Below are positions 2,322 through 28,894 of a stretch of DNA of 64,000 bases, piece by piece (positions within the stretch are counted from its first letter, which is position 1; every line of letters begins with the position of its first letter). The notes beneath the pieces are model-generated. The model ran no database searches. It was given only the letters and a program-made list of their open reading frames with translations, and was not told where the DNA came from. The DNA is taken from positions 62,001 through 126,000 of the forward strand of contig JAUVZD010000001.1 of the NCBI GenBank assembly GCA_030602715.1, given 5' to 3'. The position numbers and the translations under genes were made by a program. The DNA is from Candidatus Coatesiibacteriota bacterium (GTDB lineage: Bacteria; RBG-13-66-14; B26-G2; JAUVZD01).

Positions 2322-3878
2322 ATGGAGGAGAAGAGGGCTTTGCTCTCCGTCTATGACAAGAGTGGGCTGGTGGAGTTTGCCGACGGCTTGGTGGAGCTGG
2401 GCTTTGAGATAATCTCCTCCGGGGGAACTCATGGTCATCTTCAGGATGCGGGCATAACCTCCCGGGATATCTCCGAGTTGACCGGATTCAGCGACCTATT
2501 GGATGGCAGGGTGAAGACCCTCCATCCGGTGGTCTATGCTGGCATTCTCTCCCGGGATACCGCTCAAGACAGGAAGGCGCTGGAGGGTTTGGGAATCGTC
2601 CCCTTCAGAGTGGTGGCGGTCAACCTCTATCCCTTCCAGAAGACGGTGGCGGACCCCCGGGTAACTATGGAGATGGCTATGGAGCAGGTAGATATCGGCG
2701 GGGTCAGCCTCCTGCGAGCCGCCTCCAAAGCCCATCACCGCTGTTATGCGGTCTGTGACCCCGATGATTATAGCCGGGTGCTGGAGGTGCTCCGCTCGGA
2801 GAGGGAAGATGATTCCCTGCGTATGGAGCTGGCGGTGAAGGCTTTCGCTCACACTATGGCTTACGACGCTGCCATCACCGACTTCCTTTCCACACATCTG
2901 GGCGAGGGTAAACTGCCACCATATTTTGTCGCCGGCTTTGAGCGGGATACTATCTTGCGCTACGGCGAGAATCCTCATCAGCGAGCCGCCCTATATCTGC
3001 CGATGAATGGGGGGAGGGGACCTGTGGCTGGCGGAAGGAAGCTCTCCGGACGGGAGATATCCTATAACAACTACTGCGACTTGGAATCCGCTTATGCTCT
3101 GGTGCAGGAGTTTGACCGTCCTGCGGGGGCGGTGATAAAGCACGCCAACCCCTGTGGCTGTGCTGTGGCGGATAATCCCGCAGAAGCATTGAAGATGGCT
3201 CGGGCTGGCGACCCGGTATCCGCCTTCGGCGGGATAATTGCCACCAACCGGACCCTGGATGTCAAGGTCGCTGGGGTAATAGTCGGTCCTAAGGGATTTT
3301 TTGAAGCGGTGGTGGCACCGAAGGTTACACCCAAAGCCCTGGAGATGATTCGCCACCGTAAAGGCTGGGGGGAGCGGATTATCGTAGTTGAGGCTTCTGC
3401 GGGTTCGGCAAGCGAGTTCTATCCCAGATGGATTGAGGGGGGATTACTGCTCTCCGATGCCGACCGGCTGGTGGTGGAGGGAGACAAACTGCAGGTGGTA
3501 ACCAAGCAAGGAGTGAGCGACGAACAGATGGCTGACTTGATATTCGCCTTCACCGTGGTCAAACATGTCAGGAGCAACGCCATAACTATCGCCCGAGAGG
3601 GGATGCTTCTGGGTATGGGTGCCGGTCAGCCCAATCGTATACTCTCGGTGCAGTTAGCCCTGCAGAATGCCGAGGAGCAGCACGGTGGCTGTGAGGGGGC
3701 GGTGCTTGCCTCCGACGCCTTCTTCCCCATGCCGGATGCCCCCACACTGGCGGCGAAGGCGGGGATAAGGGTTATCATCCAGCCCGGAGGTTCGGTGAAG
3801 GATGGAGAGGTGATTCGGGCCATGGATGAGCTGGGGGTGGCTATGGTCTTTACCGGTATCCGCCATTTCCGCCATTAA
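2322..3878 (+). CDS. purH: Bifunctional AICAR transformylase / IMP cyclohydrolase
   Basis: At 518 residues this is a full-length PurH, carrying out the last two steps to IMP. The N-terminal MGS-like cyclohydrolase domain shows LLSVYDKSGLVEFA and the GRVKTLHP motif. The C-terminal transformylase domain shows the active-site VIKHANPCGCAVA and GMGAGQPNRI. The ATG immediately follows the purN TAG and is preceded by a GGAGGAGGG ribosome binding site inside the end of purN. No terminator is evident after it; a new promoter precedes purD within 100 bases. Confidence 0.97.
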   Translation: MEEKRALLSVYDKSGLVEFADGLVELGFEIISSGGTHGHLQDAGITSRDISELTGFSDLLDGRVKTLHPVVYAGILSRDTAQDRKALEGLGIVPFRVVAVNLYPFQKTVADPRVTMEMAMEQVDIGGVSLLRAASKAHHRCYAVCDPDDYSRVLEVLRSEREDDSLRMELAVKAFAHTMAYDAAITDFLSTHLGEGKLPPYFVAGFERDTILRYGENPHQRAALYLPMNGGRGPVAGGRKLSGREISYNNYCDLESAYALVQEFDRPAGAVIKHANPCGCAVADNPAEALKMARAGDPVSAFGGIIATNRTLDVKVAGVIVGPKGFFEAVVAPKVTPKALEMIRHRKGWGERIIVVEASAGSASEFYPRWIEGGLLLSDADRLVVEGDKLQVVTKQGVSDEQMADLIFAFTVVKHVRSNAITIAREGMLLGMGAGQPNRILSVQLALQNAEEQHGGCEGAVLASDAFFPMPDAPTLAAKAGIRVIIQPGGSVKDGEVIRAMDELGVAMVFTGIRHFRH

Positions 3879-3891
3879 TCCATTCAATATG

Positions 3892-3920
3892 TTGACACCG
3901 ATGGGGTTTTACTATATATT
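3892..3920 (+). promoter_or_regulatory. Sigma-70 type promoter for purD
   Basis: TTGACA at 3892-3897, a 17-base spacer, and TATATT at 3915-3920, about 56 bases before the purD ATG. This lets purD-purE and later genes be expressed separately from purM-N-H. I see no obvious operator palindrome. Confidence 0.75.
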
Positions 3921-3976
3921 AGTGTTTAATTGGAGATTGAAGGAAGATTATTCAACGGGCAGACAAAGGCGTAGTT

Positions 3977-5272
3977 ATGGGTAAGAAAGTGCTGATAGTC
4001 GGTGGTGGAGGTAGAGAGCACACCCTGGCGTGGAAGATTGCTCAGAGCCCGCAGGTGGGGAAGATAATCGCCGCGCCGGGGAATGCCGGCATCGCGCAGT
4101 TGGGGGAGTGCTTTCAAATTAAAGATGTGGAGCTTTCCCAACTTGCCGACCTGGCGGAGAAAGAGGCGGTGGACCTGACCGTCGTCGGTCCGGAGATGCC
4201 CCTCTCTCTGGGCATCGTGGACCTCTTTGAGTCCAGAGGGCTCCCCATCTTTGGGCCCAATCAGTCTGCAACCCAGCTGGAGTCCAGTAAAATCTTCTCC
4301 AAGGAGATAATGACCTCCCAGAAGGTCCCCACCGGGCACTGGCGGATATTTGATGTCTATCAGGAGGCTTTGGAGTATGTATATGACCACGGCACCCCGG
4401 TGGTTATCAAAGCCGAAGGGTTAGCCGCCGGTAAGGGTGTAACCGTGGCTATGGAGGACGAGGAGGCTTATCTGGCGATTAAGGAGAATCTGATTAAGGG
4501 GCGCTTTGGTGATTCCAGCAAAAGAATAATCATAGAGGAGTATCTCTGCGGGGAAGAAGCCTCTATTTTAGCCTTCACAGACGGGGAGACTATCCTGCCT
4601 ATGGTCACTTCCCAGGACCATAAACGCATTTATGATGAGGACCAGGGTCCCAATACAGGGGGTATGGGCGCCTATGCCCCGGCACCTATCGTCGGGGAGG
4701 GACTCTATGATTTTATCATTAACCGCATATTTAAACCGACGATAAAGGGCTTGGAAAGGGGCGGGATTATTTATAAGGGTGTGCTCTATGCCGGCTTGAT
4801 AATCGGCTTCAACGGTCCCAAGGTATTGGAGTTCAATGTCCGCTTCGGAGACCCGGAGGTTCAATCCCTTTTACCACTGCTGAAAAACGACCTTTTTGAA
4901 CTGTGTCAGGCTACCGTTGACCGCAGGCTCAAGGAGCAGAAGCTGGAGTTTGAGGAGGGCAGTTGTCTGTGCGTGGTCATGGCTTCCGGGGGATATCCGG
5001 GGAACTACACCACCGGTTACCCCATCTCCGGCCTTGAGGAAGTTGCCAAGATGGAGGATGTAGCGGTCTTCCACGCCGGCACCAAGATGAAAAAGGGAGA
5101 GATGGTGACCTCAGGCGGTCGGGTGCTGGGGGTAACCGCTAAGGCTGAAAACCTGGAGAGTGCTAACCAGTTAGCCTACCAAGCGGTCGCCAAGATTAAT
5201 TTTGACGGTGCTTTCTTTCGCAAAGACATAGGCTATAAAGGACTGGCTCGCCTTGATGAGGTGCCGGAGTAA
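3977..5272 (+). CDS. purD: Phosphoribosylamine-glycine ligase (GAR synthetase)
   Basis: This 431-residue ATP-grasp enzyme joins phosphoribosylamine and glycine. The N-terminal KKVLIVGGGGREHTLAWKI motif, the VVGPEMPLSLGIVDLF loop, the VIKAEGLAAGKGV ATP-grasp strand and TGGMGAYAPAP are all typical of PurD. Length is normal. It is the first gene after the promoter at 3892-3920 and is followed 14 bases later by purE. Glycine, its substrate, is also the substrate of the gcv operon 7 kb downstream. Confidence 0.96.
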   Translation: MGKKVLIVGGGGREHTLAWKIAQSPQVGKIIAAPGNAGIAQLGECFQIKDVELSQLADLAEKEAVDLTVVGPEMPLSLGIVDLFESRGLPIFGPNQSATQLESSKIFSKEIMTSQKVPTGHWRIFDVYQEALEYVYDHGTPVVIKAEGLAAGKGVTVAMEDEEAYLAIKENLIKGRFGDSSKRIIIEEYLCGEEASILAFTDGETILPMVTSQDHKRIYDEDQGPNTGGMGAYAPAPIVGEGLYDFIINRIFKPTIKGLERGGIIYKGVLYAGLIIGFNGPKVLEFNVRFGDPEVQSLLPLLKNDLFELCQATVDRRLKEQKLEFEEGSCLCVVMASGGYPGNYTTGYPISGLEEVAKMEDVAVFHAGTKMKKGEMVTSGGRVLGVTAKAENLESANQLAYQAVAKINFDGAFFRKDIGYKGLARLDEVPE

Positions 5273-5286
5273 TGGGGGTTTAGGAT

Positions 5287-5784
5287 ATGGTTGAAGGAGG
5301 AAAGGTACAGATAATTATCGGCTCAAAAAGCGACCGGTCGGTCCTTAAAGGGGCGATAGAAATATTGGAGGAGCTGGGTGTGGGATATTACCTGAATGTT
5401 GCCAGCGCCCATAGAACCCCCAAGCGAGTGGTTGAGCTTTCCGCTGAGTTTGAAAAGAGGGGTGTGGCGGTAGTCATCGCTTGTGCCGGGCTTGCCGCTC
5501 ATCTGCCGGGCGTAGTGGCAGCGAACACCACCCTTCCGGTCATCGGCGTTCCAATAGATGCAGGTCCCCTGGGAGGGATTGACGCACTGCTCTCCATCGC
5601 TCAGATGCCCCCGGGGATTCCGGTGGGGTGTGTGGGCATAGGTGCCGCCGGGGCAAAGAACGCCGCCCTACTGGCTGTAGAGATCATCGGCTTACAGGAC
5701 AAAGATTTGGAGAAACGTCTCAAGCGGTATCGCCAGCAGCTATCTCAGGCGGTATTGGATGATGACCTGGAAATGGGAGAGTAG
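5287..5784 (+). CDS. purE: N5-carboxyaminoimidazole ribonucleotide mutase
   Basis: The 165-residue protein rearranges N5-CAIR to CAIR. The IIIGSKSDRSVL loop, the SAHRTP active-site motif near residue 40 and the GLAAHLPGVVAA segment match class I (bacterial) PurE rather than the class II AIR carboxylase. Class I enzymes usually need PurK, and no purK is present in this window, so it must lie elsewhere or the step differs. It lies between purD and a Sua5-type gene with short gaps on both sides. Confidence 0.93.
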   Translation: MVEGGKVQIIIGSKSDRSVLKGAIEILEELGVGYYLNVASAHRTPKRVVELSAEFEKRGVAVVIACAGLAAHLPGVVAANTTLPVIGVPIDAGPLGGIDALLSIAQMPPGIPVGCVGIGAAGAKNAALLAVEIIGLQDKDLEKRLKRYRQQLSQAVLDDDLEMGE

Positions 5785-5798
5785 GTGAAGGATAGTAG

Positions 5799-6452
5799 AT
5801 GGGTAGAGCTAAGGTAATCTCTCTCTCAGCAGACGAGCCGATATCTCCTCAGAGAGTTTTCCGGGTTGCAGGTAAGCTGGCTTCGGGTGGGGTAGTAATG
5901 CTGCCCACGGATACCATATATGGCTTTTCAGCCAGTGTGAGGGCTACAGCGGGGATAAAACGCATCCGGGAGATAAAAGGGTGGGAGACGAACAGACCCT
6001 TTCTTTTATTGGCTCCGTCGCTTGGTTTCGTTTTGGAGAGTGGATGTCGCTCTGACCGTAATCTTGTATCGGTGATGCGTAAGTTCTGGCCGGGAAAAGT
6101 CACCTTCATTTTGTGGGGAGGGGAGGGGTTGCCGGCTCATTTACACAGTGCAGACGACAAGGTAGCGGTTCGGGTCCCGGAGAGCGATTTTTTGTTGGCG
6201 GTTTTGGAGGAATTACAGGAGTTCGTCGTCTCCACTAGCGCTAATAAATCCGACCAGCCACCGATAAATGACCCTGAGATGTTGAAGGATGCCTTTGGAA
6301 AAGAGGTTGACCTGATTGTGGATATGGGCAGTATGGAGATGAGGAGCGCCTCAACGCTGGTGGATATTACCACCCCTGAACCGACCCTGATACGGCAGGG
6401 GGCGTTCCCCTTTGGCCTGATAGAGACCTACATACACGGCGGAGGTCGTTAG
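5799..6452 (+). CDS. tsaC: Sua5/YciO/YrdC family threonylcarbamoyl-AMP synthase
   Basis: The 217-residue protein consists of a single YrdC domain. It shows VVMLPTDTIYGFSA near residue 35, a KGWETNRPFLLLAPS substrate loop, FWPGKVTFIL, the basic VAVRVPES strand and a STSANKSDQPP motif. The family makes threonylcarbamoyl-AMP from threonine, bicarbonate and ATP for the t6A modification of tRNA. There is no C-terminal Sua5 extension, so it is the short TsaC form. The exact paralogue (TsaC versus YciO) cannot be settled by eye. It sits in a run with purE, a phosphatase and rpiB. Confidence 0.8.
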   Translation: MGRAKVISLSADEPISPQRVFRVAGKLASGGVVMLPTDTIYGFSASVRATAGIKRIREIKGWETNRPFLLLAPSLGFVLESGCRSDRNLVSVMRKFWPGKVTFILWGGEGLPAHLHSADDKVAVRVPESDFLLAVLEELQEFVVSTSANKSDQPPINDPEMLKDAFGKEVDLIVDMGSMEMRSASTLVDITTPEPTLIRQGAFPFGLIETYIHGGGR

Positions 6453-19841: not shown

Positions 19842-20141
19842 ATGCCCAAAGAAGAGAGGATGGACACCGCCCTGGGAATGGTTGAGACCCGTGGGCTGGT
19901 GGGGTCTATAGAGGCTGCTGACGCTATGGTCAAGGCGGCTAATGTTACCTTAATAGGTAAAGAGAGGGTTGGTGGGGGCTTGGTTACGGTGATGGTGAGG
20001 GGGGATACCGGTGCGGTGAAGGCGGCTACCGAAGCCGGTGCCGCCGCCGCCAATCGGGTAGGGGAACTGCTCTCCGTCCATGTCATTCCCCGCCCCCATG
20101 CGGAGATTGAGCAGATATTGCCCCAATTACCTAAAGAGTAA
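19842..20141 (+). CDS. BMC-H hexameric microcompartment shell protein
   Basis: The 99-residue protein is a single BMC domain close to Pdu[40 protein letters not shown] and [17 protein letters not shown]. It forms the hexagonal facets of the shell. The pore loop reads KERVGGGLV, where PduA has KIGSG, so the residue lining the pore is glycine rather than serine, which may widen the channel. The ATG at 19842 follows GGAAGGATGGTAAGG. It lies between the aldehyde dehydrogenase and the phosphotransacylase genes. Confidence 0.95.
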
Positions 20142-20181
20142 CCACCGAAATTGAGCAAGAAAGCTTGGGCTGTATAAGTTG

Positions 20182-21030
20182 ATGGAAGCAGTAGAGATAG
20201 AGTCCATTCTTGCTCAGGTGAGGGCTCGCCTGGGGATTTATATGTCACCCGCAAAAGCGGCGCTGGTTCCCATAGGTGTCTCCGGGCGCCATGTCCACCT
20301 GAGTGAGGCTCATCTGGGAAAGCTCTTCGGAGCCGAGCATCGTCTGGTGAAGGTGCGGGAACTGCTCCAGCCGGGGGAGTTTGCCGCCGAGGAGACCGTC
20401 ACCCTTATCGCTCACCAGGGGGTGCTTGAACGGGTGCGGGTGCTGGGACCCACCCGCAGAAAGACCCAGGTAGAGCTTACCTACACCGACAGCAAGACAT
20501 TGGGTTTGGAACTTCCTCTGCACGGCGAGGGAGTCGGGGGGTTGACTTTATGCGGTCCGAAAGGCTCGGTTCACCTGGAAAGTGGGGTGATGCTCTCCAA
20601 GCGCCATCTTCACTGCACCCCTGCTCTGGCGACAAAGATGGGCTTCTGTGACGGTGAGGATATCCTGGCTTTCTGCGGGGATAGGCGTCAGGTGCTGTTT
20701 GATAATGTGTGGGTGCGAGTGAGCCAGAACTATGCCGACGAGCTCCACCTGGATACCGACGAAGCCAATTCCGCCCTGGTTACTACCGGCGATAAAGCCC
20801 TGGTCTTCTCCTCCCCCGGCGGGCAGATGGGAACGGTTGATACGGGTCTTGGAAGGTCAACCCATACCGCCGAGCGCTACGAGGGAGTGTTGACCGAAGA
20901 GGATGTGGTGGCTATGGCCAAGAAGGGTTTGAGCAGGATAGTTGTGGGGAGTCGCACCATAATAACCCCCTTAGCCTGGGACATTGCGCGCCGTCTGAAG
21001 ATACGGATTGAGGGAAAAGAGCTGGTATGA
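20182..21030 (+). CDS. pduL: PduL-type phosphate acyltransferase with C-terminal extra module
   Basis: The 282-residue protein converts acyl-CoA and phosphate to acyl phosphate, recycling CoA inside the compartment. Residues 1-18 form a likely N-terminal encapsulation helix (VEIESILAQVRARLG). The two PduL half-domains carry the zinc-binding histidines in SGRHVHLSEAH and MLSKRHLHCTP, and the ELHLDTDEANSA motif. The typical family length is about 210. Here about 70 extra residues follow, including IITPLAWDIARRLKIRI, which resembles a module in EutT and EutQ. The ATG at 20182 is chosen; a TTG lies one codon upstream and no clear ribosome binding site is seen. Confidence 0.92.
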   Translation: MEAVEIESILAQVRARLGIYMSPAKAALVPIGVSGRHVHLSEAHLGKLFGAEHRLVKVRELLQPGEFAAEETVTLIAHQGVLERVRVLGPTRRKTQVELTYTDSKTLGLELPLHGEGVGGLTLCGPKGSVHLESGVMLSKRHLHCTPALATKMGFCDGEDILAFCGDRRQVLFDNVWVRVSQNYADELHLDTDEANSALVTTGDKALVFSSPGGQMGTVDTGLGRSTHTAERYEGVLTEEDVVAMAKKGLSRIVVGSRTIITPLAWDIARRLKIRIEGKELV

Positions 21031-21509
21031 GCGCAAAGGAAGATGAGGTCTGCTATTACCCCATCGGGGTGATACATTCGCCATACAAGAGGTGCGAGGA
21101 GACACCCATTCAGGGAAGGTTCAATCGGGGTGTGGAGGGCAGAGTTGAGCTTTTCCCCCAGTATGAAGAGGGCTTAAAGGATATTGAGGGCTTCAGCCAC
21201 ATCATCTTGCTTTACTCTTTCCACCTTTCTACCAGCCATCCTCTGTCGGTAATCCCCTTCAGGGATGATGAGCCTCACGGTGTTTTCGCCACCCGCTCTC
21301 CCAGACGCCCAAACAATATCGGCATGAGCATGGTGGAGCTTACCGGGCGGGAGGGGAATATTCTGCACTTTTTGGGCGTGGATGTGGTGGATGGCACGCC
21401 ACTTCTGGACATCAAGCCCTATGTTCCTTCCTTTGATGAGAGTGGAGAGGTGCGCATCGGCTGGCTCACCGACAAGCTGGGCGACAGGGAGGATGAAAAA
21501 TACAGTTGA
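21027..21509 (+). CDS. trmO: TrmO/TsaA family SAM-dependent methyltransferase
   Basis: The 160-residue protein shows YYPIGVIHSPYKRCEETPIQ, FSHIILLYSFHLS, GVFATRSPRRPNNIGMSMVE and DGTPLLDIKPYVPSFD. All are signatures of the family that N6-methylates t6A37 in threonine tRNA using S-adenosylmethionine. It overlaps pduL by four bases (ATGA), and pduS overlaps it by four bases in turn, so it is embedded in the compartment operon. Whether it methylates tRNA or was recruited for something else cannot be told from sequence. Confidence 0.87.
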   Translation: MSAKEDEVCYYPIGVIHSPYKRCEETPIQGRFNRGVEGRVELFPQYEEGLKDIEGFSHIILLYSFHLSTSHPLSVIPFRDDEPHGVFATRSPRRPNNIGMSMVELTGREGNILHFLGVDVVDGTPLLDIKPYVPSFDESGEVRIGWLTDKLGDREDEKYS

Positions 21510-22843
21510 CTCTCAAATTTGTTGAGGTGACGAAAGCGGTGCGGAAGGCGGGAGTGGTTGGAGCCGGGGGAGGTGGTTTCCCCACCCATGTTAAACTTTC
21601 CGCATCCGCCCAGATTTTGATTATAAACGCCGCCGAGTGCGAACCGGGGCTCTCCAAGGACCTCTCCCTGCTCGGGGAGAGACCCGACGACATTCTGACC
21701 CCAGCCCTGAAGATCGCAGACGGTCTGGGAGCTGGGGAGATAATACTGGCACTGAAGGAGAAGCACCGCAAGCTGACCAGAGCACTGGAGAAGCTGCTGT
21801 CCTCGGATGAAAGATACCGCTCCATAAGATTCCTCTCCCTGCCGGATATCTACCCCATCGGTGATGAGTTCCTACTGGTGGAGCTAGCCACCGGGAAAAG
21901 AATCCCTCAGGGGGGACTTCCCCTTGAGGTTGGCTGTGTGGTGCAAAATGTGGAGACGCTTTATAATATCGGTAGGGCACTGCAAGGGAAGCCGGTGGTC
22001 TCCAAGTATATCACCGTTCTTGGGGAAGTGGGCTCCCCGGGGGTCTATCAGGTTCCGGTGGGCATCTCCTTCGGGGAGATAGTCTCAGCTTTAGGGGGAG
22101 CGACCATTGACCATCCCAGGTTGGTCGCCGACGGCTTGATGATGGGGCGTTTGGTGGAGAGTGTTGATGTGGTGGAGAAGACCACATCGGGGCTGTTCGT
22201 CCTTCCTCGCAGTAACCGCAGTGCCGTCCGGATGACCTTTGACCGGGAGCAAGTCCGCAGGCAGGGGAGAAGCGCCTGCGAGCAGTGTCGTCTGTGCACC
22301 GACCTCTGCCCCCGCTATCTTTTGGGCTATGACATCCAGCCCCATCGGGTTATGCAGGGATGGTGCTACTCGCTTTTGGAGACACCGCCGTTGACTATGG
22401 TCTTCAACTGTTCTCAGTGCGGGGTCTGCGAGCAGTATGCCTGTCCCATGGACCTCTCCCCTCGCAGGGTGTGTGTAATACTTCAGGAGGAGCTGACCGC
22501 TCAGGGGGTTAGCGCAGAGGGCTCTCAACCGCCGCCCGATTCTCAGAGCATCTTCCGCTCTGACCGTCTGCTCCCCAACGAGCGTTTGATTGCCAAACTG
22601 GGGCTGAGGGATTATTGTCTGGATGATGATAAAATAAAGGCTCTCACTGCAAATCAGGTTTCCATCCCCCTGGAAGGTCCTTATGGGGGAGAGGCAAAAC
22701 CGAAGGTGAAAGTAGGCGATGAGGTCTCCGTCGGTCAGGTATTGGCAGAGCCGACTGATGACAGGATGGGGCTTGCGGTGCACAGCTCCATCAGCGGGAA
22801 GGTGTGGAAGATTGACCGTAAAATACATATTAGCTCATCATAA
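21506..22843 (+). CDS. pduS: PduS-type flavin/iron-sulfur electron transfer protein (RnfC-like)
   Basis: The 445-residue protein opens with KAGVVGAGGGGFPTHVKL, the NADH/FMN-binding glycine-rich loop of RnfC and PduS, followed by INAAECEPGL. A SLBB-like segment follows, then two 4Fe-4S motifs, CEQCRLCTDLCP and CSQCGVCEQYACP (near residues 253-314). In Salmonella, PduS reduces cobalamin and contacts the shell protein PduT. No cobalamin enzyme is encoded here, so it may instead pass electrons from NADH out through the PduT-like shell protein at 23430. The TTG start overlaps the trmO stop. Confidence 0.9.
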   Translation: MTLKFVEVTKAVRKAGVVGAGGGGFPTHVKLSASAQILIINAAECEPGLSKDLSLLGERPDDILTPALKIADGLGAGEIILALKEKHRKLTRALEKLLSSDERYRSIRFLSLPDIYPIGDEFLLVELATGKRIPQGGLPLEVGCVVQNVETLYNIGRALQGKPVVSKYITVLGEVGSPGVYQVPVGISFGEIVSALGGATIDHPRLVADGLMMGRLVESVDVVEKTTSGLFVLPRSNRSAVRMTFDREQVRRQGRSACEQCRLCTDLCPRYLLGYDIQPHRVMQGWCYSLLETPPLTMVFNCSQCGVCEQYACPMDLSPRRVCVILQEELTAQGVSAEGSQPPPDSQSIFRSDRLLPNERLIAKLGLRDYCLDDDKIKALTANQVSIPLEGPYGGEAKPKVKVGDEVSVGQVLAEPTDDRMGLAVHSSISGKVWKIDRKIHISSS

Positions 22844-22878
22844 GCGACGGCGAGCGGCAGCAAGCGGAGAAGTGTGAG

Positions 22879-23406
22879 ATGGGTCCTTTTGCCATATTCT
22901 TTGCCGTCCATGTCCTCATCAATACCGCCAGTTTGGGGTTGTGGGGTGAGGGTATCTGGGTGGAGGACATCCTCGCCCCGCCCCCGCCCCCACCGGGGGA
23001 GGACGGAACGGTGTTTGAACTCATCAACCAGGAACGGATTGATGTGGGCTTGAGACCCCTGACCTACAGCTCCAAAGTCTCCGTCTTCGCCTGGAAATAT
23101 GCCAATAGGATGATAGATGAGGATTTCTACGGTCATGTGGACCCTCAGGGGAGGGAACTTGCAGAAAGGATTGAGGAGGCGGGGATAACTTATTCCATTG
23201 CCGGGGAGATAATAGCCGAGAACAGCAGCGCATATGGGGCGGTAAAAGCCTGGATGGAGAGCCCCGGTCACCAGGAGCAGATACTGACATCGGATTACAC
23301 CTCTATGGGCATTGGAATAGGTCAGTTTCATCCGTTGCATAAATATTATGTGGTGCTATTTTATCGCCCTTATGAATCTCCGCTTGAGAAATTGATGGGC
23401 TATTGA
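22879..23406 (+). CDS. Exported CAP-domain (SCP/YkwD-like) protein
   Basis: The 175-residue protein has an N-terminal hydrophobic segment (residues 3-22), an all-proline stretch near residue 34-39 and then a CAP domain. The domain shows FELINQERIDVGLRPL, YGHVDPQGRELAERI, GEIIAENSSAYGAV and AWMESPGHQEQIL, with the conserved histidines. CAP domains act outside the cytoplasm in bacteria and their substrates are mostly unknown. An exported protein inside a microcompartment operon is unexpected. Its stop overlaps a TTG that could extend the next gene. Confidence 0.85.
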   Translation: MGPFAIFFAVHVLINTASLGLWGEGIWVEDILAPPPPPPGEDGTVFELINQERIDVGLRPLTYSSKVSVFAWKYANRMIDEDFYGHVDPQGRELAERIEEAGITYSIAGEIIAENSSAYGAVKAWMESPGHQEQILTSDYTSMGIGIGQFHPLHKYYVVLFYRPYESPLEKLMGY

Positions 23407-23429
23407 GCGGGAATCGGAAGGATGGGGAG

Positions 23430-23996
23430 TTGCCAAAAGATGAGCGCAACATAATCGCTTTGGGGATGATGGAGACCCACAGCGTAGCCTTGGGTATAGA
23501 GGCGGCTGACGCCATGGGCAAGGTCGCCGATGTGGAGCTCTTAATGTCCCACACCGCCTGCCCGGGAAAATACCTGACCTTGTTAGGCGGGGAGGTGGCT
23601 GCGGTGCGGGCGGCTGTAGAGGAGGGAGAGAGGGTCGCCGGGGACAGTTTCGTTGACCGTTTCATCCTGCCCAATCCTCACCCGCAGATATTCCCCGCTC
23701 TGGCGGCGACCACCATGCCCGAGGAACTGGACGCCCTGGGCATAATTGAGACCTTCAGCGCTGCTTCCACAGTGGTCGCTGCCGATACCGCCGCAAAAGC
23801 CGCCGCGGTTACCCTGCTGGCGCTCAGGTTGGCTGTGGGTCTGGGAGGAAAGTCCTATGTTCTGCTCACCGGGGAGGTTTCCGCGGTGCGCAGTGCGGTG
23901 GAGGCTGGCGGAAGGGGGGCGGCGGAGGAGGGGCTGTTGCTGGCAAAGGTGGTCATTCCCGCACCTCTCAGCAGGCTGTATAGTCATCTGCTTTGA
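23430..23996 (+). CDS. pduT: Tandem-domain BMC-T shell protein, PduT-like
   Basis: The 188-residue protein holds two BMC domains (about 1-92 and 93-188) and would form a pseudohexameric trimer in the shell. The first domain contains SHTACPGKYL, matching the PduT segment whose cysteine binds a 4Fe-4S cluster at the trimer pore. The second ends VVIPAPLSRLYSHL. I prefer the TTG at 23430, because it sits after GGAAGGATGGGGAG and gives a start MPKDER that mirrors MPKEER of the BMC-H protein. A TTG at 23403 would add nine residues. With PduS it suggests an electron path across the shell. Confidence 0.9.
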   Translation: MPKDERNIIALGMMETHSVALGIEAADAMGKVADVELLMSHTACPGKYLTLLGGEVAAVRAAVEEGERVAGDSFVDRFILPNPHPQIFPALAATTMPEELDALGIIETFSAASTVVAADTAAKAAAVTLLALRLAVGLGGKSYVLLTGEVSAVRSAVEAGGRGAAEEGLLLAKVVIPAPLSRLYSHLL

Positions 23997-24018
23997 TGCG
24001 AATTTTTGAGGGGATAAG

Positions 24019-24789
24019 ATGTCGGTGCTCTCCCTGCAAGATGGAATCATCTACGGACCAATTGACTCCCGCCGGCTGGGAAAGTCGCTGGGCATAAACC
24101 TCCTGCCCACGGGCTACAAGCTCTGCCCCTTCAACTGCGTCTATTGCCACTACGGTTGGACTGATAAGTATTGGCGGAGGAGTGGGAAGGAGAATTTCCC
24201 CGGTGTGGATGAGGTGAAAGATGCCCTGAAGAGGGGACTGGAGTATGCGAGGGAATGTGGTTTGACCATTGATTACATCACCTTCTCCGGCAACGGGGAG
24301 CCGACCACCCATCCCCAATTTGCCCGGATGGTGGAGATGGTCTGGGTGTTGAGGAATGGGTTGTGCCCCTCTGCCAGAATAGCATTGTTGTCCAACTCGG
24401 CTTTGGTGGGGTCGGGGCACATCCGGGAGGCGATAGGGCGGGTGGAGCTTCCCATAATGAAATTGGATGTGGGCAGTCAAGGGCTTCTGGAGAAGGTCAA
24501 TCAGCCGGTCAGGGGAACCGACTTTGAGGAGATAGTCTCCGGACTGGCAATGATTCCGAATATCACCGTTCAGGCTCTCTTCTTAGCTGGAAGGGTGGAC
24601 AACTCCACCCCCCGGGCGGTGGCTGACTGGCAGGGGGCGTTGGAGCGGATAAAGCCCAAGGAGGTGCAGATATACACCACCGACCGACCGACAGCCGAGG
24701 GTGGTATCGTTGCCGTGTCTGATGAGAGGTTGGAGGAGATAGCCCTCCAGACTGCAGAGCTTCTGGGGGTTGAGGTTAGGGTTTATTGA
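24019..24789 (+). CDS. Radical SAM protein
   Basis: The 256-residue protein has GIIYGPIDSRRLGKSLGI followed by the cluster motif CPFNCVYC (C-x3-C-x2-C) at about residue 36, FSGNGEPTTHPQF and PIMKLDVGS. This is the pattern of a widespread family of small radical SAM proteins (COG0731-like) with no settled function. There are no extra C-terminal cysteine clusters. It lies 22 bases after the BMC-T gene and 10 bases before the small module protein, so it is in the compartment operon. It might activate a glycyl radical enzyme or modify a peptide, but nothing here shows which. Confidence 0.83.
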   Translation: MSVLSLQDGIIYGPIDSRRLGKSLGINLLPTGYKLCPFNCVYCHYGWTDKYWRRSGKENFPGVDEVKDALKRGLEYARECGLTIDYITFSGNGEPTTHPQFARMVEMVWVLRNGLCPSARIALLSNSALVGSGHIREAIGRVELPIMKLDVGSQGLLEKVNQPVRGTDFEEIVSGLAMIPNITVQALFLAGRVDNSTPRAVADWQGALERIKPKEVQIYTTDRPTAEGGIVAVSDERLEEIALQTAELLGVEVRVY

Positions 24790-24799
24790 GAGGTGAGTG

Positions 24800-25090
24800 A
24801 TGGTAAAGATTCTGACCATGGATGAGGTGTGCAAGCAGGCGTTGGACGGGGTGGTAGAGGTGGAGAAGGGAACCAAGTTCACCCCCCTGGCGCAGGACTA
24901 CATCTCCGAGAATCAACTTGAGGTGCGGGAGGTTCCCAAAAAGACCACAGTAACCCCCACCCGCAGTGCATCCTCCTATCCCTATTCACCGCCGAAGGCT
25001 CAAGGGGATAATTCCCCCCTGGATGAAGCCAGGCTCGCTGAAGTGGTGCAAGAGGTAATCAGGCGATTGAAGGAGAGGGGTCTGGTCTGA
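24800..25090 (+). CDS. Small microcompartment-linked protein with EutT/EutQ-like module and terminal helix
   Basis: The 96-residue protein has three parts. Residues 1-40 (LTMDEVCKQAL, then TKFTPLAQDYI and LEVRE) align with the C-terminal extension of the PduL protein and recall the N-terminal module of EutT and EutQ. A Pro/Ser/Thr-rich linker follows. The end (LAEVVQEVIRRLKERGLV) is an amphipathic helix like the tail of the aldehyde dehydrogenase. I infer a cargo adaptor or scaffold inside the compartment. The ATG at 24800 follows GAGGTGAG; a GTG one codon earlier is possible. Confidence 0.75.
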   Translation: MVKILTMDEVCKQALDGVVEVEKGTKFTPLAQDYISENQLEVREVPKKTTVTPTRSASSYPYSPPKAQGDNSPLDEARLAEVVQEVIRRLKERGLV

Positions 25091-25451: not shown

Positions 25452-25773
25452 GGCTGAGCTGACCACCCTGCGCAGGATTCTCCTGCTCCTCTTTCGCCTC
25501 CTTGCCGGGCTCTCCTGGGGGCTTTTGTTTATTGGAGCGATAGTGGCGGTTATCGTCTCCCTTTGCGCCCACTGGCAGAGCGAGCTGGGTTGGATGAAGG
25601 TGCGGGACGGTTTTATGCTGCTTACAGCGATTATGTTGTTGCCGGCGTTCTTCGCTGGTTTAATCTTGGGTTTCATCACCCACAAAAGAATGGAGAGATA
25701 TATCTTCTGGGGGCTGTGCGTTCTTATCTTCGCCGGGTTGTTTGGACATTGGTTATATTGGGCTTTGAGGTAG
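25441..25773 (+). CDS. Three-helix membrane protein of unknown function
   Basis: The 110-residue protein has hydrophobic segments near 11-40, 54-75 and 84-107. The ATG at 25441 follows GGGGAAGGAAG and is preferred over an in-frame ATG at 25426. It overlaps the previous gene by 11 bases, so the two membrane proteins are probably a pair. No terminator is seen after it; the next 434 bases hold two short ORFs and their signals. Confidence 0.65.
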   Translation: MVTEAELTTLRRILLLLFRLLAGLSWGLLFIGAIVAVIVSLCAHWQSELGWMKVRDGFMLLTAIMLLPAFFAGLILGFITHKRMERYIFWGLCVLIFAGLFGHWLYWALR

Positions 25774-25837: not shown

Positions 25838-25865
25838 TTGACATCCTCGCTCTCTGTGTTATATT
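25838..25865 (+). promoter_or_regulatory. Strong promoter in front of a short ORF
   Basis: TTGACA at 25838-25843, a 16-base spacer, and an extended -10 TGTTATATT ending at 25865. The predicted start of transcription is about 40 bases before the ATG of the 34-codon ORF. It is one of the best promoter matches in the window. Confidence 0.78.
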
Positions 25866-25910
25866 CTCATTCAAAGCTGCAGGAAAATCTACCTGAAAGG
25901 GGTGAAACCG

Positions 25911-26015
25911 ATGAGATACTGGCTTACAGTGCGTAAGATGCAAATTTCTACGCTGGGTTTTTCCATAGGCGTAGTGTATCCATTGGCGACCCCGGGAGGA
26001 CCACCAGATTCATAA
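25911..26015 (+). CDS. Candidate small protein, 34 residues, monocistronic
   Basis: The ORF encodes MRYWLTVRKMQISTLGF followed by SIGVVYPLATPGGPPDS. AAAGGGGTG lies six bases before the ATG, a strong promoter lies upstream and a terminator begins 32 bases after the stop, giving a self-contained unit of about 200 bases. The peptide has a basic N-terminus, a hydrophobic middle and a Gly/Pro-rich end. I do not recognise it. The alternative is a structured non-coding RNA with a chance ORF, since I could not match the transcript to a known riboswitch or small RNA. Confidence 0.5.
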   Translation: MRYWLTVRKMQISTLGFSIGVVYPLATPGGPPDS

Positions 26016-26046
26016 CTTCTTGATTTTACTTGGCTTATGCCATCCT

Positions 26047-26075
26047 CCCACCGCCAGCAGGTCGGTGGGTTTTTT
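26047..26075 (+). terminator. Rho-independent terminator after the 34-codon ORF
   Basis: Arms CCCACCG (26047-26053) and CGGTGGG (26063-26069), a nine-base loop and a run of six T. It closes the short transcript before the ABC transporter genes. Confidence 0.9.
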
Positions 26076-26133
26076 ATTATAGCGGAAAACGGAACGGATA
26101 TATCATCCCCGAAATATCAAAAGGAGGCATAAA

Positions 26134-26196
26134 ATGTTCAATCTTTCCCTTTTTCATGTGATTTCTAATTCATACGGAACTTTAACTTTTTCATAA
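26134..26196 (+). CDS. Candidate 20-codon leader peptide before the ABC transporter
   Basis: A consensus AAAAGGAGG at 26119-26127 lies six bases before this ATG, better than the site in front of the transporter gene itself. The peptide is MFNLSLFHVISNSYGTLTFS and the TAA lies 11 bases before the transporter ATG, so ribosomes could reinitiate. It could be a regulatory leader peptide or a very small product. No hairpin that would make a classical attenuator is evident. Confidence 0.4.
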   Translation: MFNLSLFHVISNSYGTLTFS

Positions 26197-26207
26197 TGAG
26201 GTAAGCG

Positions 26208-27068
26208 ATGATACACAAAGCACTACAATGCCGAGGAGTGACCAAGACCTTCATAGTTGATGGGGAGGAGGGGGGCATAATCAAACGGATAAGGAACCGG
26301 AAGAATCGCTTCCGGGCGGTGGACGACATCAGCTTTACCGTTGAGGCTGGCGAGATATTCGGCATCATCGGACCCAACGGAAGCGGAAAGTCCACCCTGA
26401 TCCGGCTCATCTCCACCCTGCTCCTCCCGAATGAGGGTTATATCAGCGTCTTTGGGAACGATGTGGTCAAGGACTCAAGAAAGGTGCGTCGGCTGATAAA
26501 CCGGGTGACGGTGGAGGCTTCCTTCTTCAAAAAGCTCTCCGCCCTGGAGAATCTCACCTATGCCGCCAGGCTTTACGATGTGCCCATAAAAGAGGCTAGG
26601 GAGAAGATAGAGTACATTCTGGGGCGGTTGCAGTTTCCCACCAAGAAGCTCAAGGAACCTCTGGAGAATCTCTCCAGGGGTATGCAGCAGAAGGTGGCTA
26701 TCGCCAGAGCACTCTTCACCCGACCGACGCTGTTGTTGTTGGACGAGCCCACCACCGGTCTTGACCCCCGCTCCAAGCGGGAGGTGCAGGCTTTCGTCAG
26801 GGAGGCTCAGTCGGAGTTCGGTGCCACCATCCTGTTCACCACCCACGACATGGAGGAGGCGGAGAGCATCTGCGGACGCATCGCCATAATCAAGGACGGA
26901 CGGTTCGTGGCTCTGGACACCGCAGAGGGCTTGAAGCGGCTTGCTGGAAACGGAAGCGGCAAGGAGCTGACCATGGAGGATGTATTCTTCATCCTCACCG
27001 GTGAGGAGTGGGAAGGTAAGGAAGATAAAGGGGAAGGCGAGGTGATGGAGAATGCCGGCGTTAATTAG
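26208..27068 (+). CDS. ABC transporter ATP-binding protein
   Basis: The 286-residue protein has Walker A GPNGSGKST (near residue 54), the LSRGMQQKVAIARAL signature, Walker B LLLLDEPTTGLD and the switch histidine in ILFTTHDMEEAES. This is the type that pairs with ABC-2 family permeases for export of drugs, lipids, polysaccharides or peptides. It overlaps its permease by 17 bases. The substrate is unknown; a short ORF with a strong ribosome binding site lies directly upstream. Confidence 0.93.
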   Translation: MIHKALQCRGVTKTFIVDGEEGGIIKRIRNRKNRFRAVDDISFTVEAGEIFGIIGPNGSGKSTLIRLISTLLLPNEGYISVFGNDVVKDSRKVRRLINRVTVEASFFKKLSALENLTYAARLYDVPIKEAREKIEYILGRLQFPTKKLKEPLENLSRGMQQKVAIARALFTRPTLLLLDEPTTGLDPRSKREVQAFVREAQSEFGATILFTTHDMEEAESICGRIAIIKDGRFVALDTAEGLKRLAGNGSGKELTMEDVFFILTGEEWEGKEDKGEGEVMENAGVN

Positions 27069-27852
27069 AGAGATACGGGCTTCTTACGGCTTTGTGGAAC
27101 GCAACTTCAACCTGGTGAAACGCTACATGGGTTGGGAGGTGGTCTTCCTCTTCTACAATGTAGTCAATACCCTGACCATCGGCTTAATCGGCTACGCCAC
27201 CGGGGATATGGAGCTGGTGCTCTTCCTGGTCATCGGTGCGCTCATGTGGGCTTTCCTGGGGGTCCTCTTCCACGAGGTATCCGAGAGCGTAGCCTGGGAG
27301 CGCTGGGAGGGAACCATAGAATTTACCTTCATGGCTCCCATCAGGCGCATCACCATGCTTTTAGGAACCTGTTTATATGCGGTCATCTACGGCGTGTTGC
27401 GCACCATCGTGGTCTTGCTCTTTGTTCTGCTCTTCTTTGACTTGGGCTTTGAGAACGCCAACTTCCTCTCCGCGGTGGTGATCCTGGTAGTCTCCTCGCT
27501 CAGCTTCATCGGTCTGGGACTGATGGCTGCGGTGTTGCCTTTGATAAGCCCGGAACGTGGTCCCCAGGCGACGCACATCATCCAGGCGCTGATTTTGCTG
27601 GTATCCGGCGTCTATTATCCCATCTCGGTTCTGCCGGTCTGGCTTCAGCCGCTCTCCTATATCAGCCCGGCTACCTACACCCTGAGGATGATGCGCTCGG
27701 CGATGCTGGAGGGCGCCTCCCTCAACACCATGGGTTGGGACCTCTTGGGACTGACCATCTGTGGAATAGCGCTTATTCCCATCGGTGCGTGGATATTCAA
27801 CCTGGGTGAGCTCTATGCCAAGAAGGTGGGTAAGCTCAAGCGAAGCGGTTAA
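27052..27852 (+). CDS. ABC-2 type transporter permease
   Basis: The 266-residue protein has about six membrane segments, beginning near residues 25, 55, 105, 138, 170 and 230. It has the ABC-2 pattern GVYYPISVLPVWLQPLSYISP before the last helices. With the overlapping ATP-binding gene it makes a two-component exporter. A strong GC-rich hairpin follows. Confidence 0.9.
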   Translation: MPALIREIRASYGFVERNFNLVKRYMGWEVVFLFYNVVNTLTIGLIGYATGDMELVLFLVIGALMWAFLGVLFHEVSESVAWERWEGTIEFTFMAPIRRITMLLGTCLYAVIYGVLRTIVVLLFVLLFFDLGFENANFLSAVVILVVSSLSFIGLGLMAAVLPLISPERGPQATHIIQALILLVSGVYYPISVLPVWLQPLSYISPATYTLRMMRSAMLEGASLNTMGWDLLGLTICGIALIPIGAWIFNLGELYAKKVGKLKRSG

Positions 27853-27938: not shown

Positions 27939-27988
27939 AGCGTTTAGCTAATGCATTTTTTCACAATTCCAATATGAGGTGGAGGGCG

Positions 27989-28894
27989 ATGGGAGCAATA
28001 AGCAAAATGGTTGTGGGTATGGTGCGGATAATGCCTCCTGCTCTGGTGAAGGTATTCGCTATGCGATATATCGCCGGGGACAAGCTGGAGGATGCGATAG
28101 AGGTGGTTGAGCAGTTGAACCAGCGGGGGGTGATGGCTACCATAGATGTCTTAGGGGAGAGTATCACCGAGAAAGAGGAGTCCCGACGGGCGGTGGAGGA
28201 TTATAAGAAAGTCCTGCAGGAGATTGATAGAAATGGTTTGGATTCTAATATCTCCATAAAACCCACTATGTTCGGAATAACTTTTGATTACAATTTCTGT
28301 TACGCTAACATAGAGGAATTGATTGAGGAGGCGGAGAAATACGGTAATTTCGTGCGTCTGGATATTGAGGACACCTCGGTCACTGATGATACCTTCAAGC
28401 TCTGCCTTGAATTGATGAAGAGACACAAAAATGTGGGCACTGCAGTGCAATCAATGTTGCGCAGGACCCTGGACGATGTTTATATGCTGGGGAAACATAA
28501 GGTCAACCTGAGGATTTGTAAGGGGGCATATAAGGAACCCCGAAAGGTTGCCTATCAGGATAAAGTAAACATTGACCGGAGTTTTATCGCCTGTATGGAT
28601 GTCCTGTTTTCAGCCGGGAGTTATGTGGGCATAGCTACCCATGATGAGAAGATGGTCTTTGAAGGGGTTCGGCTTGCCAGAAGATACGATCTGAAGCGGG
28701 AGCAATATGAGTTTCAGATGTTACTCGGCGTGGACAGAGAGCTTGAGGACATAATCGTTGAAGGTGGGCATCGTCTGCGCATCTATGTTCCCTTCGGAGA
28801 ACAATGGTATCCTTACTCCATCAGGCGTTTCCACGAGAACCCGGATATAGCTGGGAACATAATGAAGAATATGTTCAGCAGGTATGAGAGGTAG
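27989..28894 (+). CDS. Proline dehydrogenase
   Basis: The 301-residue flavoprotein should oxidise proline to pyrroline-5-carboxylate. The barrel shows TIDVLGESITEKEESRRAV, ISIKPTMFG, VRLDIEDTSVTDDT, NLRICKGAYKEPR, GIATHDE and the C-terminal YVPFGEQWYPYSIRRFHENP arginine motif. It is the short single-function form; no pyrroline-5-carboxylate dehydrogenase gene is nearby. The ATG at 27989 follows GGTGGAGGG; an in-frame ATG at 27974 lacks a ribosome binding site. Confidence 0.92.
   Translation: MGAISKMVVGMVRIMPPALVKVFAMRYIAGDKLEDAIEVVEQLNQRGVMATIDVLGESITEKEESRRAVEDYKKVLQEIDRNGLDSNISIKPTMFGITFDYNFCYANIEELIEEAEKYGNFVRLDIEDTSVTDDTFKLCLELMKRHKNVGTAVQSMLRRTLDDVYMLGKHKVNLRICKGAYKEPRKVAYQDKVNIDRSFIACMDVLFSAGSYVGIATHDEKMVFEGVRLARRYDLKREQYEFQMLLGVDRELEDIIVEGGHRLRIYVPFGEQWYPYSIRRFHENPDIAGNIMKNMFSRYER

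Follow-up and report, generated by a model that had tools for sequence, protein, structure and literature searches.

The locus examined here raises the question of what a compact transcription unit is for when it stands by itself in a gap between genes. In the window, by which is meant the whole stretch of 64,000 nucleotides that was analysed, a 434-nt gap between the open reading frame (ORF) ends at 25773 and 26208 contains a promoter, a ribosome binding site, a short ORF ending at 26015 and a terminator, all on the + strand. An earlier note reported these parts, and their coordinates and the size of the gap are confirmed by direct reading. It took the unit to be self-contained, with a small protein or else a small RNA as its necessary product, and regarded an exported or sensed peptide as conceivable in view of the neighboring ABC transporter. 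The comparisons described below instead make it quite likely that the unit is the 5′ leader of the exporter operon at 26208–27852 and that it acts as a ribosome-mediated transcription attenuator.

The promoter (TTGACA-16 nt-TATATT, 25838–25865) is of the sigma-70 type with an extended −10, its −35 hexamer TTGACA occupying 25838–25843 and its −10 (TGT-TATATT) ending at 25865. It matches the consensus at 11 of 12 positions with the TG present, is the top-scoring site of the region and is directly preceded by an A-tract. The Shine–Dalgarno (SD) sequence AAAGGGGTG at 25896–25904 serves a 34-codon ORF at 25911–26015 (MRYWLTVRKMQISTLGFSIGVVYPLATPGGPPDS; ATG at 25911, TAA at 26013–26015), which is the putative sensor and whose codons also contain the 5′ strand of an antiterminator; a start at the in-frame GTG of position 25902 would lengthen the product to 37 aa, but that codon overlaps the SD. 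The intrinsic terminator at 26047–26075 (CCCACCG-N9-CGGTGGG-T6), recognized from sequence and folding, comprises a stem at 26047–26069 and the T6 tract at 26070–26075, and folded alone it reaches −16.0 kcal/mol (z −4.2), a value equaled by 0 of 200 shuffles. The combination of promoter and terminator at such spacing likewise arose in 0 of 500 shuffled upstream regions. The unit is present as a single copy in the 2.31-Mb genome. At the gathering score, 4227 Rfam families gave no match to the unit or elsewhere in the window, and at E up to 10 the unit drew chance matches only; the earlier note had not recognized a known RNA, and the Rfam hit that it named as its own refutation is absent. A DNA search for the unit in 60 relatives returned nothing besides the window itself, a search for the leader peptide in relatives gave nothing convincing (best E 0.02), and the peptide matches no family of Pfam or NCBIfam.

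The presumed regulated gene encodes a DrrA-like ABC exporter ATPase (26208–27068, +), and it is overlapped in the same operon by the gene of an ABC-2 type permease (27052–27852, +). The top NCBIfam match of the ATPase is drrA (TIGR01188), with a score of 244.3 that lies below the curated cut-off of 312.45 and marks it as a relative of that family and not a member; no peptide-exporter family was matched at its cut-off. A proline dehydrogenase (a Thermus-type relative, 27974–28894) stands after the permease. The window also holds a microcompartment-type locus at 19842–25090, with BMC shell-like proteins at 19842 and 23403 and a PduL-like protein at 20179 (all recognized by eye), an RnfC/PduS-like protein at 21506 and a protein with weak ethanolamine-utilization/PduM-type matches at 24797; TrmO-like, CAP-domain and radical-SAM genes lie among them. 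In the short flanks examined around the orthologs none of the window's neighbors turned up, and synteny gives no hint of the substrate.

The loci of relatives were found by searching for the permease in place of the unit. All six genomes of the same class (G001–G006, Coatesbacteria) carry an orthologous ATPase–permease pair, and ahead of every pair stand a TTGAC-type promoter, a short ORF and a terminator of the CCCACC/GGTGGG type, the promoter being of like position and sequence type (AAAAAA-CTTGAC..TGTGTTATATA). A like arrangement was found by a GTDB scan and further genome searches in Zixibacteria, WOR-3/Stahlbacteria, Thermoactinomycetales, Alicyclobacillales and other Firmicutes. The orthologous transporters that have it stand at 52–66 per cent identity. 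In a more distant family of the same phylum (f5) the transporter is present and the leader absent, and the Poribacteria sampled yielded no such terminator. A detection rule demanded a promoter of at least 10/12 and a terminator 40–330 nt later, no farther than 480 nt from the gene. It was positive at 39 of 100 distinct orthologs; for the other ORFs of those loci the count was 10 of 425, and for shuffled upstream regions 0 of 500. These counts are descriptive because the 100 orthologs are mutually related and not phylogenetically independent, and the rule overlooks some clear cases such as Coatesbacteria with TTGACT. Among 17 relatives searched with Rfam at the gathering threshold the sole match was a TPP riboswitch (76 bits; L054, 6684–6785), which flanks an ortholog locus of Firmicutes, far from the leader and unrelated to it. 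One Coatesbacteria locus (L049 of G005, 3477–5990) has one ATPase and then three tandem permease genes, and in Thermoactinomycetales (L155, L156 and L158) a conserved small ORF containing YW[LM]IEGPRSYR[QE]SI[LI][NS]DKIR sits between attenuator and transporter.

The earlier note was right to suspect that the ABC transporter was involved, in that comparable units recur before its orthologs, and for the same reason a self-contained gene is unsupported. Its choice between small protein and small RNA fails on the spacing of terminator and transporter in relatives. That gap is 9, 21, 22 and 29 nt in L117, L143, L140 and L065, respectively, and 38, 39 and 46 nt in L152, L053 and L058, with the transporter starts in these seven loci being alignment estimates. 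Gaps of 9–46 nt are too small for a sigma-70 promoter, and therefore the transporter should be transcribed through the terminator; with no room for a second promoter, the unit would be the leader of the transporter mRNA. The window has a gap of 138 nt (start by alignment), and the best promoter-like site inside it (26169–26197, 9/12) is of chance-level quality and would begin transcription a few bases 5′ of the ATG. From the short gaps of relatives it would follow that leader and transporter share one transcript in the window as well. The same gap contains a second mini-ORF that the earlier note missed (26120–26196, +; strong SD AAAGGAGG, product MFNLSLFHVISNSYGTLTFS), with a near-perfect SD at 26120, 20 codons from the ATG at 26134 and a TAA at 26194–26196, 11 nt 5′ of the transporter start. 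It is possible that its translation is coupled to that of the transporter; no conserved counterpart was noticed in relatives.

What is conserved in the leader ORF appears to be its extent. In seven WOR-3 leaders (L101, L102, L112, L140, L143, L145 and L146) the ORF is exactly 30 codons long, even at 51–92 per cent nucleotide identity (51–78 per cent for all pairs except one), and starts 7–8 nt past the −10, where transcription is expected to begin, so that it would be leaderless. Where WOR-3 relatives have an early stop, a second ORF abuts it and extends to the usual end point. Differences are spread evenly over the codon positions, without a third-position excess, in both WOR-3 (250/211/220) and Coatesbacteria (66/79/69), which together with the constant ORF length indicates that frame and length are kept and the peptide is not. 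The leader ORF is thus very probably translated, with its exact length or its tiling kept in relatives. The earlier note had proposed synonymous changes across relatives as proof of a peptide, and these comparisons reveal no synonymous excess.

The orthologous leader peptides are nearly unrelated and range over 18–45 residues. Short stretches are shared, WV[IT]VP.ARW.GV in Coatesbacteria and EVKST at the WOR-3 stop; both coincide with RNA helices, and conservation of peptide and of RNA is inseparable here. A universal peptide motif, h-h-x-h-P-[IL], was considered and dropped: GTGTATCCATTG or a close variant is common to three Zixibacteria-like leaders, where it is out of frame as judged from the only plausible start, and no conserved arrest peptide is therefore claimed. 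In these leaders (L051, L053 and L058) the nucleotides GGAGTGTATCCATTG are similar to GTAGTGTATCCATTG of the window while the plausible start reads a different frame, a likeness that may reflect conservation at the RNA level, frameshifting or coincidence. IGVV and LFHVIS resemble motifs of Erm leaders, a likeness too weak for use. No usable statement on macrolide Pro motifs was found in PMC6238534.

Within the ORF, the sequence GGGAGGA (25994–26000, +) is predicted by folding to pair with UCCUCCC (26043–26049, +), whose last three bases also open the terminator's 5′ arm. This antiterminator hairpin has a computed energy of −18.6 kcal/mol (z −2.85), compared with −16.0 for the terminator, and the two are mutually exclusive through an overlap of three bases in the window and six in the Coatesbacteria relatives; because just three bases are shared, the switch in the window may be leaky. 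In Coatesbacteria, CGGTGG and GGYGTAA of the ORF pair with TTACRCC and the terminator 5′ arm CCACCG, with energies of −26.1 kcal/mol (z −3.3) in L046 and −20.0 (z −2.4) in L040. Across five Coatesbacteria leaders 94 per cent of antiterminator cells are paired, versus 26–53 per cent when slid, and two pairs are altered on both sides. The compensatory base-pair change by which the earlier note would have recognized an RNA is accordingly present to a modest degree, and it is located in the antiterminator. In a test of the energy of any duplex the window antiterminator is no better than shuffles (p 0.43), and over 42 leaders the enrichment is weak (5 below 0.05; chi-square 113, 84 df); because this test does not single it out, support for the window antiterminator comes from its position and from relatives. 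The whole leader transcript folds at −67.9 kcal/mol (z −2.95 versus shuffles), and in this fold its 5′ end pairs with the terminator 3′ arm, a pairing that had no counterpart in the relatives looked at.

The relation between the two helices and the ORF was computed by folding each leader at equilibrium with a ribosome on every codon, the RNA being removed up to a point 13, 15 or 17 nt beyond the start of the P-site codon as an assumed footprint. In the window the antiterminator is predicted to form with the P site at or before codon 23 (Tyr) and to be lost from codon 25 on; at codon 24, a Pro, it is possible with the shorter footprint. This places the decision point within codons 20–24 (GVVYP, 25968–25982, +), with the boundary between on and off at GVVY|P. 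Of five Coatesbacteria leaders, four (L045, L046, L048 and L049) have it near WV[IT]V|P, one to three codons ahead of the conserved Pro, and these boundaries, like that of the window, are robust to two-base changes of the footprint; in L047 and L040 the boundary is not at Pro. The permissive stretch of the WOR-3 leaders opens at codon 22, with Pro in five of the seven. That such a codon geometry would be common to clades whose leader sequences are unrelated is the most telling of the computed results, within the terms of equilibrium folding and an assumed footprint. When full-length leaders are folded at equilibrium, the terminator is often favored at any ribosome position (L048 and several WOR-3 leaders), and thus the switch would have to be kinetic.

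These features suggest the following mechanism. Transcription would begin about 7 nt past 25865, and a ribosome would trail the polymerase through the 34-codon ORF. If translation were free, the ribosome would pass GVVYP, reach the stop codon and mask GGGAGGA, the CCCACCG/CGGTGGG terminator would form, and transcription would end at about 26075. A ribosome that stalled or lagged at or before codons 23–24, the X-Pro bond, would leave GGGAGGA exposed and free to pair with UCCUCCC, which would take three bases of the terminator's 5′ arm and allow read-through into the exporter. Translation of the ORF is probably the sensing step. The likely signal would be impaired translation, caused for example by a ribosome-targeting compound that the exporter expels, and translation stress or such a compound is probably the inducer; that a ribosome-targeting compound in particular is the natural inducer is a guess at somewhat short of even chances, and slow translation of other cause would act alike.

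Other explanations of the same parts have to be weighed against an attenuator. There is some reason to think of an independent gene for a 34-aa peptide, exported or sensed and possibly served by the adjacent ABC transporter: the SD and ORF are good, promoter and terminator are the unit's own, the peptide has a hydrophobic middle and a Gly/Pro-rich tail, and an exporter adjoins. Such a gene is nonetheless very unlikely, given orthologous peptides that differ in length and are nearly unrelated, codon-position counts in Coatesbacteria and WOR-3 that lack a third-position excess, a peptide that has no Pfam or NCBIfam match, an ATPase below the cut-off of every peptide-exporter family and a terminator that in relatives abuts the transporter gene. 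An exported or pheromone-like peptide is likewise disfavored by amino acids that are without visible purifying selection.

A ligand-binding riboswitch or a protein-binding attenuator that controls the transporter, with the ORF incidental, would also account for the presence of both terminator and antiterminator, and the riboswitch reading was considered for other ABC-leaders (Naville and Gautheret 2010; PMC2965389). It is slightly less credible again than a peptide gene, in that no aptamer-like core is conserved between clades, no Rfam riboswitch lies within these leaders, and the features that are kept are the ORF, its length and the distance from codon to antiterminator. The lowest probability is assigned to a small RNA some 200 nt long that acts in trans. 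A discrete promoter and terminator and a transcript that folds better than shuffles would suit it, but it has no Rfam match, the length of the ORF is conserved in relatives, and strict linkage to one transporter gene across phyla, together with the tiny gaps between terminator and gene, argues for action in cis. The terminated product of the attenuator's leader could still have a side activity.

An attenuator of this type is known already, and the interest of the present case is mainly its breadth across phyla. In Bacillus subtilis bmrB–bmrCD has been shown by experiment to be a ribosome-mediated attenuator, in which translation of the bmrB leader governs read-through into bmrCD and 50S-targeting antibiotics are the inducers (PMC4191407). 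The likeness extends to the leader ORF (53 codons in bmrB), the alternative stem-loops and the terminator before an ABC exporter (PMC4191407), whereas BmrCD, a heterodimeric multidrug exporter, belongs to another ABC class than the DrrAB-like ATPase and ABC-2 permease found here. The present leaders, which are predicted from sequence, occur not just in Firmicutes but also in Coatesbacteria and further uncultured phyla, and have putative sensor ORFs that in WOR-3 are leaderless or split. Streptococcal msrDL–msrD also combines a short ORF, a terminator and a resistance ABC gene, and a stalled ribosome blocks the terminator (PMC10314930); there a 6-residue peptide senses cladinose macrolides and the ribosome itself covers a terminator arm (PMC10314930), whereas the window-type leader would use an antiterminator and its peptide is not conserved. 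As in the trp-type attenuators of Escherichia coli, the position of the ribosome would choose between antiterminator and terminator, but here there is no run of codons for a single amino acid and no biosynthetic gene downstream. Naville and Gautheret (2010) reported 205 candidate ABC-leaders with predicted premature terminators and antiterminators (PMC2965389), and the five displayed (potABCD, a Lactobacillus multidrug exporter, metal/methionine, alkanesulfonate and one unknown Bacillus transporter) include neither the present exporter family nor any case from Coatesbacteria, Zixibacteria or WOR-3, with overlap with the Firmicutes cases being possible. A literature search, thin on subscription papers, found no description of this leader–exporter family.

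More tentatively, the leaders of Firmicutes, Coatesbacteria, Zixibacteria and WOR-3 may constitute a single translation-sensing family that spans phyla and is linked to one DrrAB-like exporter, in which nearly all of the sequence has been replaced while the geometry, a slow X-Pro step placed where antitermination becomes possible, has been kept, and whose sensor is leaderless in WOR-3. Leaders of this kind would be recognizable, absent sequence conservation, by the same gene, a terminator in the leader and the distance from codon to antiterminator. If the attenuator reading is true, an exporter family known just from its sequence gains an inducer class, translation stress, in phyla without a cultured model, and leader-ORF attenuation of exporters extends beyond the resistance genes of Gram-positive bacteria. 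If the phylum-spanning reading is also true, the exporter would have an ancient and conserved tie to ribosome stress in these uncultured lineages.
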